From Gemmatimonadota bacterium (GTDB lineage Bacteria; Gemmatimonadota; Gemmatimonadetes; Longimicrobiales; Gaopeijiaceae), in NCBI GenBank assembly GCA_028874995.1, contig JAPPGM010000047.1, positions 27,703 to 70,756 on the forward strand: a stretch of DNA of 43,054 bases, given 5' to 3'. Below the pieces are notes generated by a model that ran no database searches, was not told where the DNA came from, and saw only the letters and a list, made by a program, of their open reading frames with translations. This document shows positions 28,180 through 32,502 of the stretch, in pieces. Position 1 is the stretch's first letter, and the number at the start of each line of letters is the position of its first letter. The position numbers and the translations under genes are program-made.

Positions 28180-29364
28180 ATGGGGTTGTCCTTCAAACGG
28201 ATCGCGCCCCTCGCTCTGCTCCTTCTCGCCGCGTGTGGCGAAAACCCGTCCCGATCACCGGACCCGCCGGACGCGCACTGGGTCTCGGAGCCTGCGTTCC
28301 AAATCGGCGATGCCCTGGCGGGCGACGCCCTCTTCGGCTTCATACCCTCGCTGCGCGTCAGCCCGGACGGCCGCCGTGTCCACGTCCTTGAACCCTACGA
28401 GGCGAAGGTATCGGTCTGGACGCCCGACGGCCGTCGCCTCTTTGACGTGGGCGGCACCGGTAAGGGCCCCGGCGACTTCATGCTGCCCTACCGCGTCCAC
28501 CTCGGCGACTCCTGGTTCTACGTCCGCGACCAGTCGCGGTTCACGTACTTCTCCAACGACAGAAAGGTCCTGAGGACGGTTCCCAACCCGCCCACGCTGT
28601 TGAACTACCAGGGATTCCCCATTCGGGTGAACGCCCACCTTTCCGATGGGAGCTTTCTGGGCTTTCCAACCAGGAAGCCCCCGACAGGCCTGGAGCTGGG
28701 GTGCAGGGACGACGCTGAAGAGAAGCCGGTGCTCCGGGTCCGCGAAACCGGTACCGGGTGGGTGCACGAAGTCGTGTTCCGGCGCAAGTACGGCAACGGT
28801 ACCCTGGCCGTTCCGATAGGGATTGGCTGCTACTATGGACCGCACCCCTACTCGGATGCCGACCTGTACTGGGCGGATCCGGACGCCGGAAGCGTGGTAG
28901 TGGTGCGCATGTCCCTCGATGACCTGGATCCGGGGCGGTCCGAGCTGTTCGAGGTGAGTGCCGCGGGTGATACGTTGTGGAAGCGGGGCCTGGCGTTCCA
29001 GCCCATCAGGCTGACCCTGGACATGCTGGAAGCGGCCCTGAATGACTTGGAGTCGGTTCTGGACGATCGCTTCCGGCGAGACGCGGTTGAACGGGCGCTG
29101 GATGCTCCCGAATACCTGCCCGCGGTCTCGGACTTCGCGCTTGCGTCCAACGGTCGCATCTGGCTGCGGAGTCCCGAGGTATTGGACACGCTCAGCGTCT
29201 GGTATTCGCTCGAACGGGGCGACACCGAGTCGCCTCTGCGGCGCGTGCTGCTGCCCGAGGGGTTTGAGTTGATGGACGCGACCGACACCCACGTCTGGGG
29301 CGTGTGGAAGGACGAGTTGGACATCAACTACGTGGTGGGGCGGCGGCTGGTGCCAGGGTCGTGA
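28180..29364 (+). CDS. 6-bladed beta-propeller lipoprotein, copy 1
   Basis: A 394-residue putative outer-envelope lipoprotein. The ATG at 28180 gives a textbook lipoprotein signal, MGLSFKRIAPLALLLLAACGE, with lipidated Cys19; upstream in-frame starts (TTG 28111, ATG 28153) would only lengthen the n-region. Repeated strand motifs such as LRVSPDGRRVHVLEPYEAKV, SVWTPDGRRLFDVGGTGKGP and LRTVPNPPTLLNYQGFPIRV suit the 6-bladed beta-propeller family common in Bacteroidota and Gemmatimonadota. It closely resembles the gene at 30060: both end in WKDEL-DI-YVVGRRLVP, and their 3' ends are highly similar at DNA level. No catalytic site is recognised; a binding or sensing role at the cell surface is a guess. 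Confidence 0.75.
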   Translation: MGLSFKRIAPLALLLLAACGENPSRSPDPPDAHWVSEPAFQIGDALAGDALFGFIPSLRVSPDGRRVHVLEPYEAKVSVWTPDGRRLFDVGGTGKGPGDFMLPYRVHLGDSWFYVRDQSRFTYFSNDRKVLRTVPNPPTLLNYQGFPIRVNAHLSDGSFLGFPTRKPPTGLELGCRDDAEEKPVLRVRETGTGWVHEVVFRRKYGNGTLAVPIGIGCYYGPHPYSDADLYWADPDAGSVVVVRMSLDDLDPGRSELFEVSAAGDTLWKRGLAFQPIRLTLDMLEAALNDLESVLDDRFRRDAVERALDAPEYLPAVSDFALASNGRIWLRSPEVLDTLSVWYSLERGDTESPLRRVLLPEGFELMDATDTHVWGVWKDELDINYVVGRRLVPGS

Positions 29365-29504
29365 TTCAGCCGAGGCCGGTGGCCCGGTGGAATCTCAACT
29401 CTTGGTCCCCTTCGCGGAAGGCGAAGCTGAACGGAGAAACGGACATGGCAGTTTACTTTCACGTGCTCCGAAAAGCGGACATTCCATTTGCTCCCAACAG
29501 CGCT

Positions 29505-29534
29505 TTGACAAGAATCCGGGGGGAGGGGTACCGT
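29505..29534 (+). promoter_or_regulatory. Candidate promoter for the Cys-rich protein gene
   Basis: A perfect TTGACA (29505-29510) is followed after 18 bases by TACCGT (29529-29534), which has the TA...T of a -10 box. The start codon at 29600 is 66 bases downstream. The -35 is strong; the -10 is weak. Confidence 0.4.
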
Positions 29535-29599
29535 TAGCGCGGTTCGGGACTGACAGAGGCCCGGACGACACGTGTACACTCCACGAGAGGAGACGCATC

Positions 29600-30052
29600 A
29601 TGAGGAATCGGCATCTATTCCCGTTGCTGTTGGTGGCCGTGGCGGCCGCCGTGCTGGTGCCTGAGAGGGCGACCGCCCAGAATTGTTGGAGATGTATGCA
29701 GTGTCCGTTCGATCCGACCCCGGGAGCGAGAATGTGTACGGGGTTTTCACTCAACGACGAACCCGTCGTGGGCGCGACGCGCTGCGCGGGACCTGCATTC
29801 TGCACTTGCATCCTGCGTTCCATCGGTTTCTGCGACGGGCGGGAGAGCATGGCTGACAGTCAGGCGGAACGGCAACTCCTGGAGGGAACGCTCGCGGCGA
29901 TCAGGGAGGGCAGATCCATATCGGCGGACGCGCCCTTCTTCTACGTGCGCTCCGGAGCCGACTTCGTGGTCCGAAGCAAATGCGACTTGGCCGAGGTCGC
30001 TCGATTGGCCGTTGCCGAAGTCAACCGGCCACGCACGGTTGTCGCGGGGTAA
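29600..30052 (+). CDS. Secreted small Cys-rich protein between the two propeller genes
   Basis: A 150-residue exported protein of no family I can name. The signal peptide is MRNRHLFPLLLVAVAAAVLV to about Ala26 (ATAQ). The mature part has nine Cys (29, 32, 35, 46, 62, 68, 70, 78, 128) in CWRCMQCPFD, ARMC, RCAGPAFCTC and GFC spacing, suggesting disulfides or metal binding. A less Cys-rich helix-plus-strand tail follows (RQLLEGTLAAIREGRSI). The ATG at 29600 has GAGAGGAGA 7 bases upstream; the frame extends farther upstream without support. It is flanked by paralogous propeller genes, with the second starting 7 bases after its stop. In Bacteroidota small Cys-bearing NVEALA-type peptides sit beside 6-bladed propellers; similarity here is of arrangement, not sequence. 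Confidence 0.7.
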   Translation: MRNRHLFPLLLVAVAAAVLVPERATAQNCWRCMQCPFDPTPGARMCTGFSLNDEPVVGATRCAGPAFCTCILRSIGFCDGRESMADSQAERQLLEGTLAAIREGRSISADAPFFYVRSGADFVVRSKCDLAEVARLAVAEVNRPRTVVAG

Positions 30053-30059
30053 CCCGATC

Positions 30060-31271
30060 TTGCCGGCCGCGCGGTGCTTGACGCTTCCGACGCTCCTCCT
30101 ATCCGCCGCGTGTGCTGACCGCCCGCCCGAATCCGCCGCCCATCCCCAGGCGGAGTGGATCTCGGAACCCGACTACCACATAGGCGACGCCATGACCGGC
30201 GACGGCGTATTCGGGTGGGTAGGCTACGTGCGCGTGAGCCCGGACGGTCGGCGCGTCTTCGTGTTGGAGCCCAACCAGGCCCGCGTGACGGTCTGGACGC
30301 CCGGTGGACGGCTGTTGCTGGACCTGGGTGGCGCCGGCGAGGGTCCCGGAGACTTCATGCTGCCCTATCGCATTCACGCGTGGGAGTCCGGGTTCTATGT
30401 CCGTGACCAGGTACGGTTCTCGTTCTTCTCGTACGACGGTACCCTGCTCCGGACGGTGCCCAACCCGCCCACCCTGGTCAGCTACCAGGGGTTTCAGATC
30501 CAGGTTGGGGCCATCCTCGAAGATGGCAGTTTCCTGGGCCACCCGGATATCCCCGCCAGCATCGAATTGGGCCTTTGGGGTGATGACCCGATCGACAGCC
30601 TGCCGCTACTTCGAGTATGGGAATCCGACGCCGGTTGGTCACGAGAACCGGTGGTGTGGCGGAACATCCGCAACGCCACCCTGCACGTTCCGTTTGACGA
30701 TGGCATGTTGATGGCGGGGCAGCCGTTTTCGGACTCGGACCCGTACAAGCTGGACCGGGGCGCGGGAACCGTCGTGGTCGCCCGAATGCGCCGGGACTAC
30801 CTTGGACCCGGTGAAGTAGAGTTTCTGGAAACGAACGCCTATGGGGATACGGTTTGGCGGCGCCGTTTGGCTTTCCGTCCGATCAGACTGGCTCGGCCCA
30901 TGCTGGAGGAGGCGATCGACGAGAATGCGCAACTGCTGAAGCAAGAGGAGAACGAGAATCTATTCGGGGGCCGTTCCGCCCGCGAGGCGGTCGAGGACGC
31001 GCTGTACAAGCCCGAGTATCTGTCTGCGGGCGATGCATTCCTGCTGGCGTCGTCGGGTCGGCATATCTGGCTCAGGAGCCATGAGCAAGTGGACACGCTG
31101 AGGGTGTGGTATACCATCGAGCGGAACGACAGCGAGTCCCCTCCGCGGCGTGTGCTCCTCCCGGAGTCGGTGCTGTTCTGGGATATGACCGACACCCACG
31201 TCTGGGGGATCTGGAAGGACGAGCTGGACATCAGCTACGTGGTGGGGCGGCGGCTGGTGCCCCCGGGATGA
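30060..31271 (+). CDS. 6-bladed beta-propeller lipoprotein, copy 2
   Basis: A 403-residue paralogue of the gene at 28180. A TTG at 30060 is proposed: it gives a lipoprotein signal with lipobox LSAAC (Cys18), lies 7 bases after the preceding stop and avoids overlap. The in-frame TTG at 30012 would overlap the Cys-rich gene by 41 bases. Shared landmarks with copy 1: AEWISEPDYHIGDAM, VRVSPDGRRVFVLEPNQARV, GEGPGDFMLPYRIHAWESGF, LRTVPNPPTLVSYQGFQIQV and a near-identical C-terminus. An extra charged stretch (EENENLFGGRSAREAVEDAL) marks divergence. Start codon uncertain; fold and paralogy secure. Function unknown. Confidence 0.75.
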   Translation: MPAARCLTLPTLLLSAACADRPPESAAHPQAEWISEPDYHIGDAMTGDGVFGWVGYVRVSPDGRRVFVLEPNQARVTVWTPGGRLLLDLGGAGEGPGDFMLPYRIHAWESGFYVRDQVRFSFFSYDGTLLRTVPNPPTLVSYQGFQIQVGAILEDGSFLGHPDIPASIELGLWGDDPIDSLPLLRVWESDAGWSREPVVWRNIRNATLHVPFDDGMLMAGQPFSDSDPYKLDRGAGTVVVARMRRDYLGPGEVEFLETNAYGDTVWRRRLAFRPIRLARPMLEEAIDENAQLLKQEENENLFGGRSAREAVEDALYKPEYLSAGDAFLLASSGRHIWLRSHEQVDTLRVWYTIERNDSESPPRRVLLPESVLFWDMTDTHVWGIWKDELDISYVVGRRLVPPG

Positions 31272-31308: not shown

Positions 31309-32502
31309 ATGGACACGGTTGTCGGGCACCGGGGATATGGGACACTGTTCCTGCTGGCCTCGTCACTTGCATTGGCAGCAGGCAGCCCCCTCGACACCCA
31401 CGCCCAGATCGTGCGTGGCCGGTTGCTGGACGCCGAGGGTCGAAGCGGCATCAGCGGCGCCATGATCACCCTCCTCGACCGGCAGGGCACCGAAGTCAGA
31501 CGGACACTTTCGCGCAGCTCCGGTCTCTACCAGCTGATTGCGCCGGCACCTGGAGCGTATCGACTGAGAGCCGACCGGATCGGATACTGGCGGATCCGGA
31601 TGCCCCTGGCTCGCCTGGCGACGAGCCCGCTGACCGGCAGGGAGGTGGCCGTCCTCGATGGGATCGAGGTCGAGGGCGGCGACGTCATCAGGGCTCATGA
31701 GAACGATGGTGCTGTCGCACTGCTCGAATCCGGCCCCCGGGGAAGGATCGTGGGATCGGTCCTGGACACCCTGAATGCGGGGCTGCCCGGTGCCCGGGTC
31801 TTCATCGTCGGCACGGGGATCGAGTCGCGTACCGACCGCGAGGGCAGGTTCGAGCTGGGCCGGCTGGATCCGGGGGCCTATGCCGTCAACTTCAGCCATC
31901 CCTATCTGCAGTCCCTCGGCTACGTTCCGGAACCGGTCGAAGTAGAGGTCATGGCCGACGCGGAGCCCCCGCCCGAGGTTCATTTTGCGACTCCGACCGT
32001 TCGCTGGATCGTCGAAGCGGTGTGTCGTGACGAGAAACGCCCGGAGCCGCTCAGGGTGGGCGGTGCGAAGTTCCCCATGGATGGGTACTTGATCGGACAG
32101 GTGACCGATCACGCCGGGAACCCCGTGCCCGGGGAGACGGTCCGCATTCTCTGGACCCGATACGGGCTCGGCGAGACGGAAGACCAGACCCGTGTCGAAG
32201 CCAGGCGCGCGTTCTCGCTGCCGAAGACCAACGCGGCGGGTAATTACATCGCCTGCTGGGTCCCGCTCGATACCAGGCTCGAGATTGCGGTCGTGGAGAC
32301 GGGGGAGGGCGCGAGTCTTGAAGACCTGGACGCCAACGAATTGCGGACGCGGCAGTACACGATCGTCATTCCGGTGTCGGCAGGCCTCGAACGGCTGGAT
32401 CTGCGGCTGGGGGCGGATCCCAAGCCGGTGCGTCACGCCCGCACTGGTCGTGGCCTCGTGTGGCGACCGTACGCGCGAGCCCACGGATCGACCCGAGGCT
32501 GA
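31309..32502 (+). CDS. Secreted protein with carboxypeptidase-regulatory-like domains; chimeric C-terminus
   Basis: A 397-residue exported protein. The signal peptide runs to about THAQ (residue 33). At least two, probably three, carboxypeptidase regulatory-like (beta-sandwich) modules follow: IVRGRLLDAEGRSGISGAMI... GAYRLRADRIGYW near 34-100, GRIVGSVLDTLNAGLPGARV... GRFELGRLDPGAYAV near 143-190, and YLIGQVTDHAGNPVPGETV near 260. Such modules occur in surface and TonB-linked proteins, with no catalytic residues visible. ATG at 31309 (TTG at 31303 also possible). The last ~20 residues (after DPKPV) lie over a broken propeller stub read in another frame, so the native end has probably been replaced. 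It follows the propeller cluster by 37 bases. Confidence 0.7.
   Translation: MDTVVGHRGYGTLFLLASSLALAAGSPLDTHAQIVRGRLLDAEGRSGISGAMITLLDRQGTEVRRTLSRSSGLYQLIAPAPGAYRLRADRIGYWRIRMPLARLATSPLTGREVAVLDGIEVEGGDVIRAHENDGAVALLESGPRGRIVGSVLDTLNAGLPGARVFIVGTGIESRTDREGRFELGRLDPGAYAVNFSHPYLQSLGYVPEPVEVEVMADAEPPPEVHFATPTVRWIVEAVCRDEKRPEPLRVGGAKFPMDGYLIGQVTDHAGNPVPGETVRILWTRYGLGETEDQTRVEARRAFSLPKTNAAGNYIACWVPLDTRLEIAVVETGEGASLEDLDANELRTRQYTIVIPVSAGLERLDLRLGADPKPVRHARTGRGLVWRPYARAHGSTRG

Follow-up and report, generated by a model that had tools for sequence, protein, structure and literature searches.

A cysteine-rich exported protein encoded next to beta-propeller lipoproteins in a genus of Gemmatimonadota

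Gene content of the locus and its propeller lipoproteins

The window, i.e. the whole stretch of 43,054 nucleotides that was analyzed, belongs to a 4.5 Mb draft assembly of a Gemmatimonadota bacterium and carries on its forward strand the gene of a predicted NHL-type six-bladed propeller lipoprotein, which we refer to as PROP1 (28180..29364), followed by the gene of an exported, cysteine-rich protein of 150 amino acids, CYS (29600..30052), and by the gene of the cognate propeller lipoprotein of CYS, PROP2, which begins with a TTG codon 7 bp past the CYS stop codon (30060..31271). Located 3' of PROP2 on the same strand is a gene for an exported protein with carboxypeptidase regulatory-like domains (31309..32502), which is possibly co-transcribed with PROP2; a gene of this type is an inconstant neighbor across the other CYS loci. 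Judging from isolate names, the host group, which is probably Candidatus Palauibacter or a close relative, is probably marine and mostly sponge-associated; Palauibacterales have been reported in sponges (PMC10469786).

An earlier note on this DNA had described two related propeller lipoproteins with near-identical 3' ends and a secreted cysteine-rich protein between them. Indeed, PROP1 and PROP2 share 58% amino acid identity across 391 residues, the final 84 nt of their genes are 87% identical, and CYS, with nine cysteines in the mature protein, is encoded in between. By reading of the sequence, both propeller proteins have a signal peptide with a lipobox cysteine (LLLAAC in PROP1, LLSAAC in PROP2). 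PROP1 is a paralogue without a CYS gene upstream, and a search of its upstream region for a CYS remnant revealed none; in the propeller tree, it is the sister of a CYS-linked propeller in the closed genome G021 (SH-aLRT 98). The flanking of CYS by two propellers is local to the window and no rule elsewhere, and the conserved unit is a CYS gene followed by a propeller gene.

PROP2 is predicted to be an NHL-type six-bladed beta-propeller, based on an AF2 model (pLDDT 88) whose nearest solved fold is the NHL domain of Brat (1Q7F, Z 14.7, rmsd 4.6, 249 residues aligned), and which also matches the exported Bacteroides fragilis propeller 4RAA (Z 13.3). Profile searches agree with this assignment, with E values down to 7e-25 for TRIM/NHL proteins and of 7e-6 for 4RAA. 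The two proteins resemble the exported six-bladed propellers of the DUF5128/BF0058 type, to which 4RAA belongs, in fold and export, but they remain below the Pfam gathering cut-off of DUF5128 (10.3 bits vs 22.9 for PROP1, no match for PROP2), and it is their clade that is linked to CYS. About 175 six-bladed propeller genes are present in the same genome, many of them in tandem clusters (e.g. L127, L126, L196 and L207).

The CYS family and its pairing with propellers

CYS consists of a signal peptide (about residues 1-27, ending in ATAQ|NCWRC), a Cys-rich domain (29-78) and an alpha-beta-beta-beta tail (about 85-140), which includes Cys128. It is a single-copy gene in its own genome. The profile search of the 150-residue protein that the earlier note had proposed uncovered members in 14 of 23 genomes of the same genus and no match to a known family, and none was found in 272 genomes of the same class outside the genus, where first-look candidates were scored in part and very remote members could escape. 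In the named collection, relatives occur in the Gemmatimonadota MAGs RHO3_bin_73, RHO1_bin_51, SB0662_bin_23, OX639991.1 and jk18x22bins.63; a first scan of this collection with the single CYS protein as query had returned none. Sequence searches of Pfam, NCBIfam and PDB gave no relative of CYS either, which, judged by its sequence, is a new family.

Alignments of 16 to 21 members revealed seven invariant cysteines in the order CxxC...C...C...C...C...C(tail). Since relatives in 14 of the 23 same-genus genomes keep these cysteines and pN/pS amounts to 0.3-0.6, being below 1 throughout, we conclude that CYS is a real gene. Within the subclade of the window, the Cys domain is the least constrained part according to pN/pS and evolves faster than the signal peptide and the tail. 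Two further cysteines, C35 and C68, co-occur, the partner being present in ten of 12 members with C35 and in none of six without it (Fisher p=0.0015, uncorrected for phylogeny), which is the pattern expected of a disulfide. In the structural model of CYS, the tail is confident (pLDDT about 90) and the Cys domain is poorly resolved with low confidence; a fold search with this model gave no match at E<=0.001, and the best one (VIA, Z 2.7) is noise. We also considered the tail as a propeller blade, because weak matches to residues 106-140 were single blades, but discarded this assignment, since the comparison of the CYS and propeller profiles was non-significant (probability 0.5%).

Of the confident CYS genes in the 23 same-genus genomes, 25 have readable sequence on their 3' side, and in all 25 cases a propeller gene comes next, on the same strand and no more than about 300 bp away; several of the pairs are spaced by 0 to -4 bp; at L094 and L109, too, a propeller is present beside CYS. 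By comparison, propellers account for about 4.5% of the genes in the genome of the window. Within the very large propeller family, the CYS-linked propellers group in a single clade (100% support), except for two on the tree that are linked to the CYS2 type described below, and the distances among CYS proteins correlate with those among their propellers (r=0.77, 0 of 5000 permutations). This pairing is also found where identity is down to 20-50%, and it occurs at many positions in the genomes. Regarding other neighbors, an ECF sigma gene followed by a short CxxC protein, which may be an anti-sigma factor, was observed at L096 and L100.

The reverse relation does not apply. The genome of the window has one CYS gene, located beside PROP2, vs about 175-178 propeller gene calls, from which we conclude that CYS is an accessory of a few propellers. 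Across the genus, about 30 of about 105 close-clade propellers have a CYS gene, and no CYS-similar gene was found upstream of 40 close-clade propellers of other genomes. Some intact propeller genes are preceded by truncated CYS remnants, which shows that propellers persist without CYS. When the regions 5' of the propeller genes in the window's genome were scanned for further exported Cys-rich ORFs, CYS alone held up, and a stricter scan with about 70% recall gave no further one; the other propeller-adjacent Cys-rich ORF of the first scan (L169) appears to be spurious. The neighborhood survey suggested in the earlier note therefore gives an asymmetric answer, in that most propellers lack CYS whereas every confident CYS gene with readable downstream sequence has its propeller, which indicates that CYS depends on the propeller and not the reverse.

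Weak matches led to a second family, CYS2 (CxWC...HRF...CHxDW...GxC; L110, L291, L292 and L315), and to a third, CYS3 (L115, L330, L337, L340 and L352). Both are divergent and share an exported start, a CxxC motif, a Cys-rich portion and a tail whose single cysteine is followed by a VAxIP-like motif, and both adjoin propellers of other clades, mostly being located upstream of them. Cassettes are duplicated as units, as seen at L352 from two tandem cassettes in the order CYS3-PROP-CYS3-PROP, and at L353 in genome G012 the gene order is reversed.

Promoters with poly-G tracts

The TTGACA-type promoter candidate of CYS pointed out in the earlier note is present in the window, and its layout is conserved in relatives. 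The -35-like element TTGACA (29505..29510, forward strand) corresponds to TTGCGA, TTGCAG or TTGCGG at the same position in relatives, and the -10-like element of this CYS-PROP2 promoter, TACCGT (29529..29534, forward strand), corresponds to TAnnnT; due to this weak -10 element, a generic promoter scan missed the promoter. The N18 spacer between the two elements includes an interrupted poly-G tract, GGGGGGAGGGG (29518..29528, forward strand), which reads G6-A-G4 and had gone unmentioned in the earlier note. According to the alignment, a G tract upstream of CYS is conserved in the subclade of the window. Because the tract of the window is broken by an A, it is probably fixed.

In total, the arrangement TTG-N16-20-TAnnnT, in which the spacer holds the tract, was identified at six CYS promoters and one CYS2 promoter, and poly-G promoter tracts are confined to the window subclade of CYS and this one CYS2 gene. 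The tract is uninterrupted in five CYS relatives, with G10 at L088 (TTGCGA-N16-TACCCT), G11 at L089 (N17), G10 at L091 (N20), G10 at L092 (N19) and G13 at L102 (N19), and it comprises G15 in front of the CYS2 gene at L315 (TTGACA-N20-TAGACT), so that lengths among relatives range from 10 to 15. The pattern G9-TACNNT occurs six times in the 23 genomes, five of these occurrences being located at CYS promoters.

Only tracts of at least 12 nucleotides were counted as notable, and shorter ones were left aside because a coding poly-G9 in the propeller motif GxGGEGPGE can come from glycine codons alone. There are 53 runs of at least nine G in the closed genome G021, and six of ten examined G/C runs of at least 12 are located in CYS or propeller loci; since these loci are related by descent, the p-values for the enrichment are rough. 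These long runs lie in the promoters at L315 and L317, in the upstream region at L339, right after the ATG of the CYS3 gene at L340 (C21, in the coding start), in the coding part of a propeller at L310, where G14 splits the reading frame at GGxGxGPGEF, and just ahead of the start of a propeller gene at L341 (C13).

Further homopolymer sites were observed. A C9 run lies inside a leucine-rich-repeat lipoprotein-like reading frame at L295 (G008:C29), possibly another phase-variable surface gene, and at L304 (G021:C1:211966) TATAC and the GTG start codon for a probable porin-like protein of the outer membrane come directly after G12. Upstream of the CYS3 gene at L330 (G021:C1:2847004-2847350), three C8-C9 runs 172 bp apart suggest a 172-bp tandem repeat. 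Long alternating G/C homopolymers at L121 (1386-1607), L125 (1-50) and L176 (1-106), some of which are located at the end of a contig, have the appearance of assembly artefacts.

A candidate phase-variable surface cassette

With moderate confidence, we propose that CYS and its propeller constitute a phase-variable surface cassette, in which a propeller is combined with a disulfide-rich partner of its own and which probably serves recognition or adhesion. PROP2 would be anchored in the cell envelope as a lipoprotein, and CYS, presumably expressed from the same transcript, would be exported as its partner, with the conserved tail docking on or capping the propeller and the fast-changing Cys loops setting the binding specificity for a host or neighbor surface. 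The G tract would set the spacing between the -35 and -10 elements, and slipped-strand errors could switch or tune the pair. According to the account in PMC3899988 (citing van der Ende 1995), the length of a G tract between the -35 and -10 elements sets transcription of porA in Neisseria meningitidis. The CYS-PROP promoters resemble porA, as described there, in that the tract lies between these elements upstream of a gene for a putative surface protein, at a spacing near the sigma-70 optimum; they differ in phylum and gene, in the interrupted tract of the window and in that switching is inferred for CYS-PROP.

Alternatively, the adjacency could be historical, with CYS being a minor envelope protein that is co-transcribed by descent and functionally uncoupled from the propeller, and with the G tract being a mutational relic. 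The common descent of all CYS1 loci, the many propellers without CYS and the interrupted tract of the window would fit such a history, which we nevertheless regard as unlikely, since the pairing has been retained by members of 20-50% identity at many genomic positions, the same arrangement recurs for CYS2 and CYS3 with propellers of other clades, and unbroken tracts of G10-G13 would be expected to decay without selection.

It is quite unlikely that CYS, secreted as an effector or bacteriocin-like protein, has the propeller lipoprotein as its cognate immunity protein or receptor, CYS-less propellers then being orphan immunity genes. A propeller would be unusual as an immunity protein, CYS matches no toxin family of Pfam or NCBIfam, and about 170 further propellers lack any partner, even though the tight co-divergence of CYS and propeller, the conserved signal peptide next to a fast-changing Cys core, the frequency of CYS-less propellers and the decayed CYS copies are all compatible with a toxin-immunity pair. 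A surface sensor, in which ligand binding by CYS and propeller feeds an ECF sigma/anti-sigma pathway, appears decidedly improbable: ECF sigma genes are located close to the CYS loci L096, L100 and L106, and an anti-sigma-like gene lies just upstream of a CYS-less propeller at L253, but most CYS loci, among them that of the window, lack sigma and anti-sigma genes in their vicinity.

In Bacteroidota, NVEALA proteins (PF14055) are encoded beside six-bladed propellers, and our literature search found no paper on this pairing. CYS, too, is small, exported and contains cysteines, and its gene neighbors that of a propeller lipoprotein; adjacency to a six-bladed propeller was found at all of the 25 confident CYS loci, which is an analogy only. 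That CYS represents a genuine precursor of an NVEALA-type peptide and its locus the Gemmatimonadota version of the Bacteroidota system is hardly credible despite the similar gene context and a propeller fold close to 4RAA, since PF14055 gave no match at E<=1 in the genome of the window and none at E<=0.5 among 18 CYS proteins, and CYS has about twice the length and includes a folded tail domain. Moreover, CYS differs in its seven invariant cysteines, its confinement to one Gemmatimonadota genus and the poly-G promoters of some members. The earlier note had suggested a propeller/Cys-peptide system comparable but unrelated in sequence to the NVEALA pairs; the recurrent pairing, the co-divergence and the lack of sequence relationship support it, but it does not extend to the propeller family in general.

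Returning to the phase-variable cassette, a wider reading, which we put forward tentatively and by analogy to Opa and porA of Neisseria, is that CYS1, CYS2 and CYS3 together with propellers of different clades might form a repertoire of propeller and disulfide-rich ligand cassettes, which would be phase-variable via homopolymer tracts in promoters and coding starts and would diversify the surface recognition of sponge symbionts. Should the G tracts switch, the cassettes would represent a case of phase-variable surface proteins of the porA kind in Gemmatimonadota, on which our literature search found no paper. For a phylum that is mostly uncultured, the CYS-propeller pair provides a unit of two genes that is defined and testable, and it may serve as a parallel case for the unexplained propeller/NVEALA pairs of Bacteroidota.
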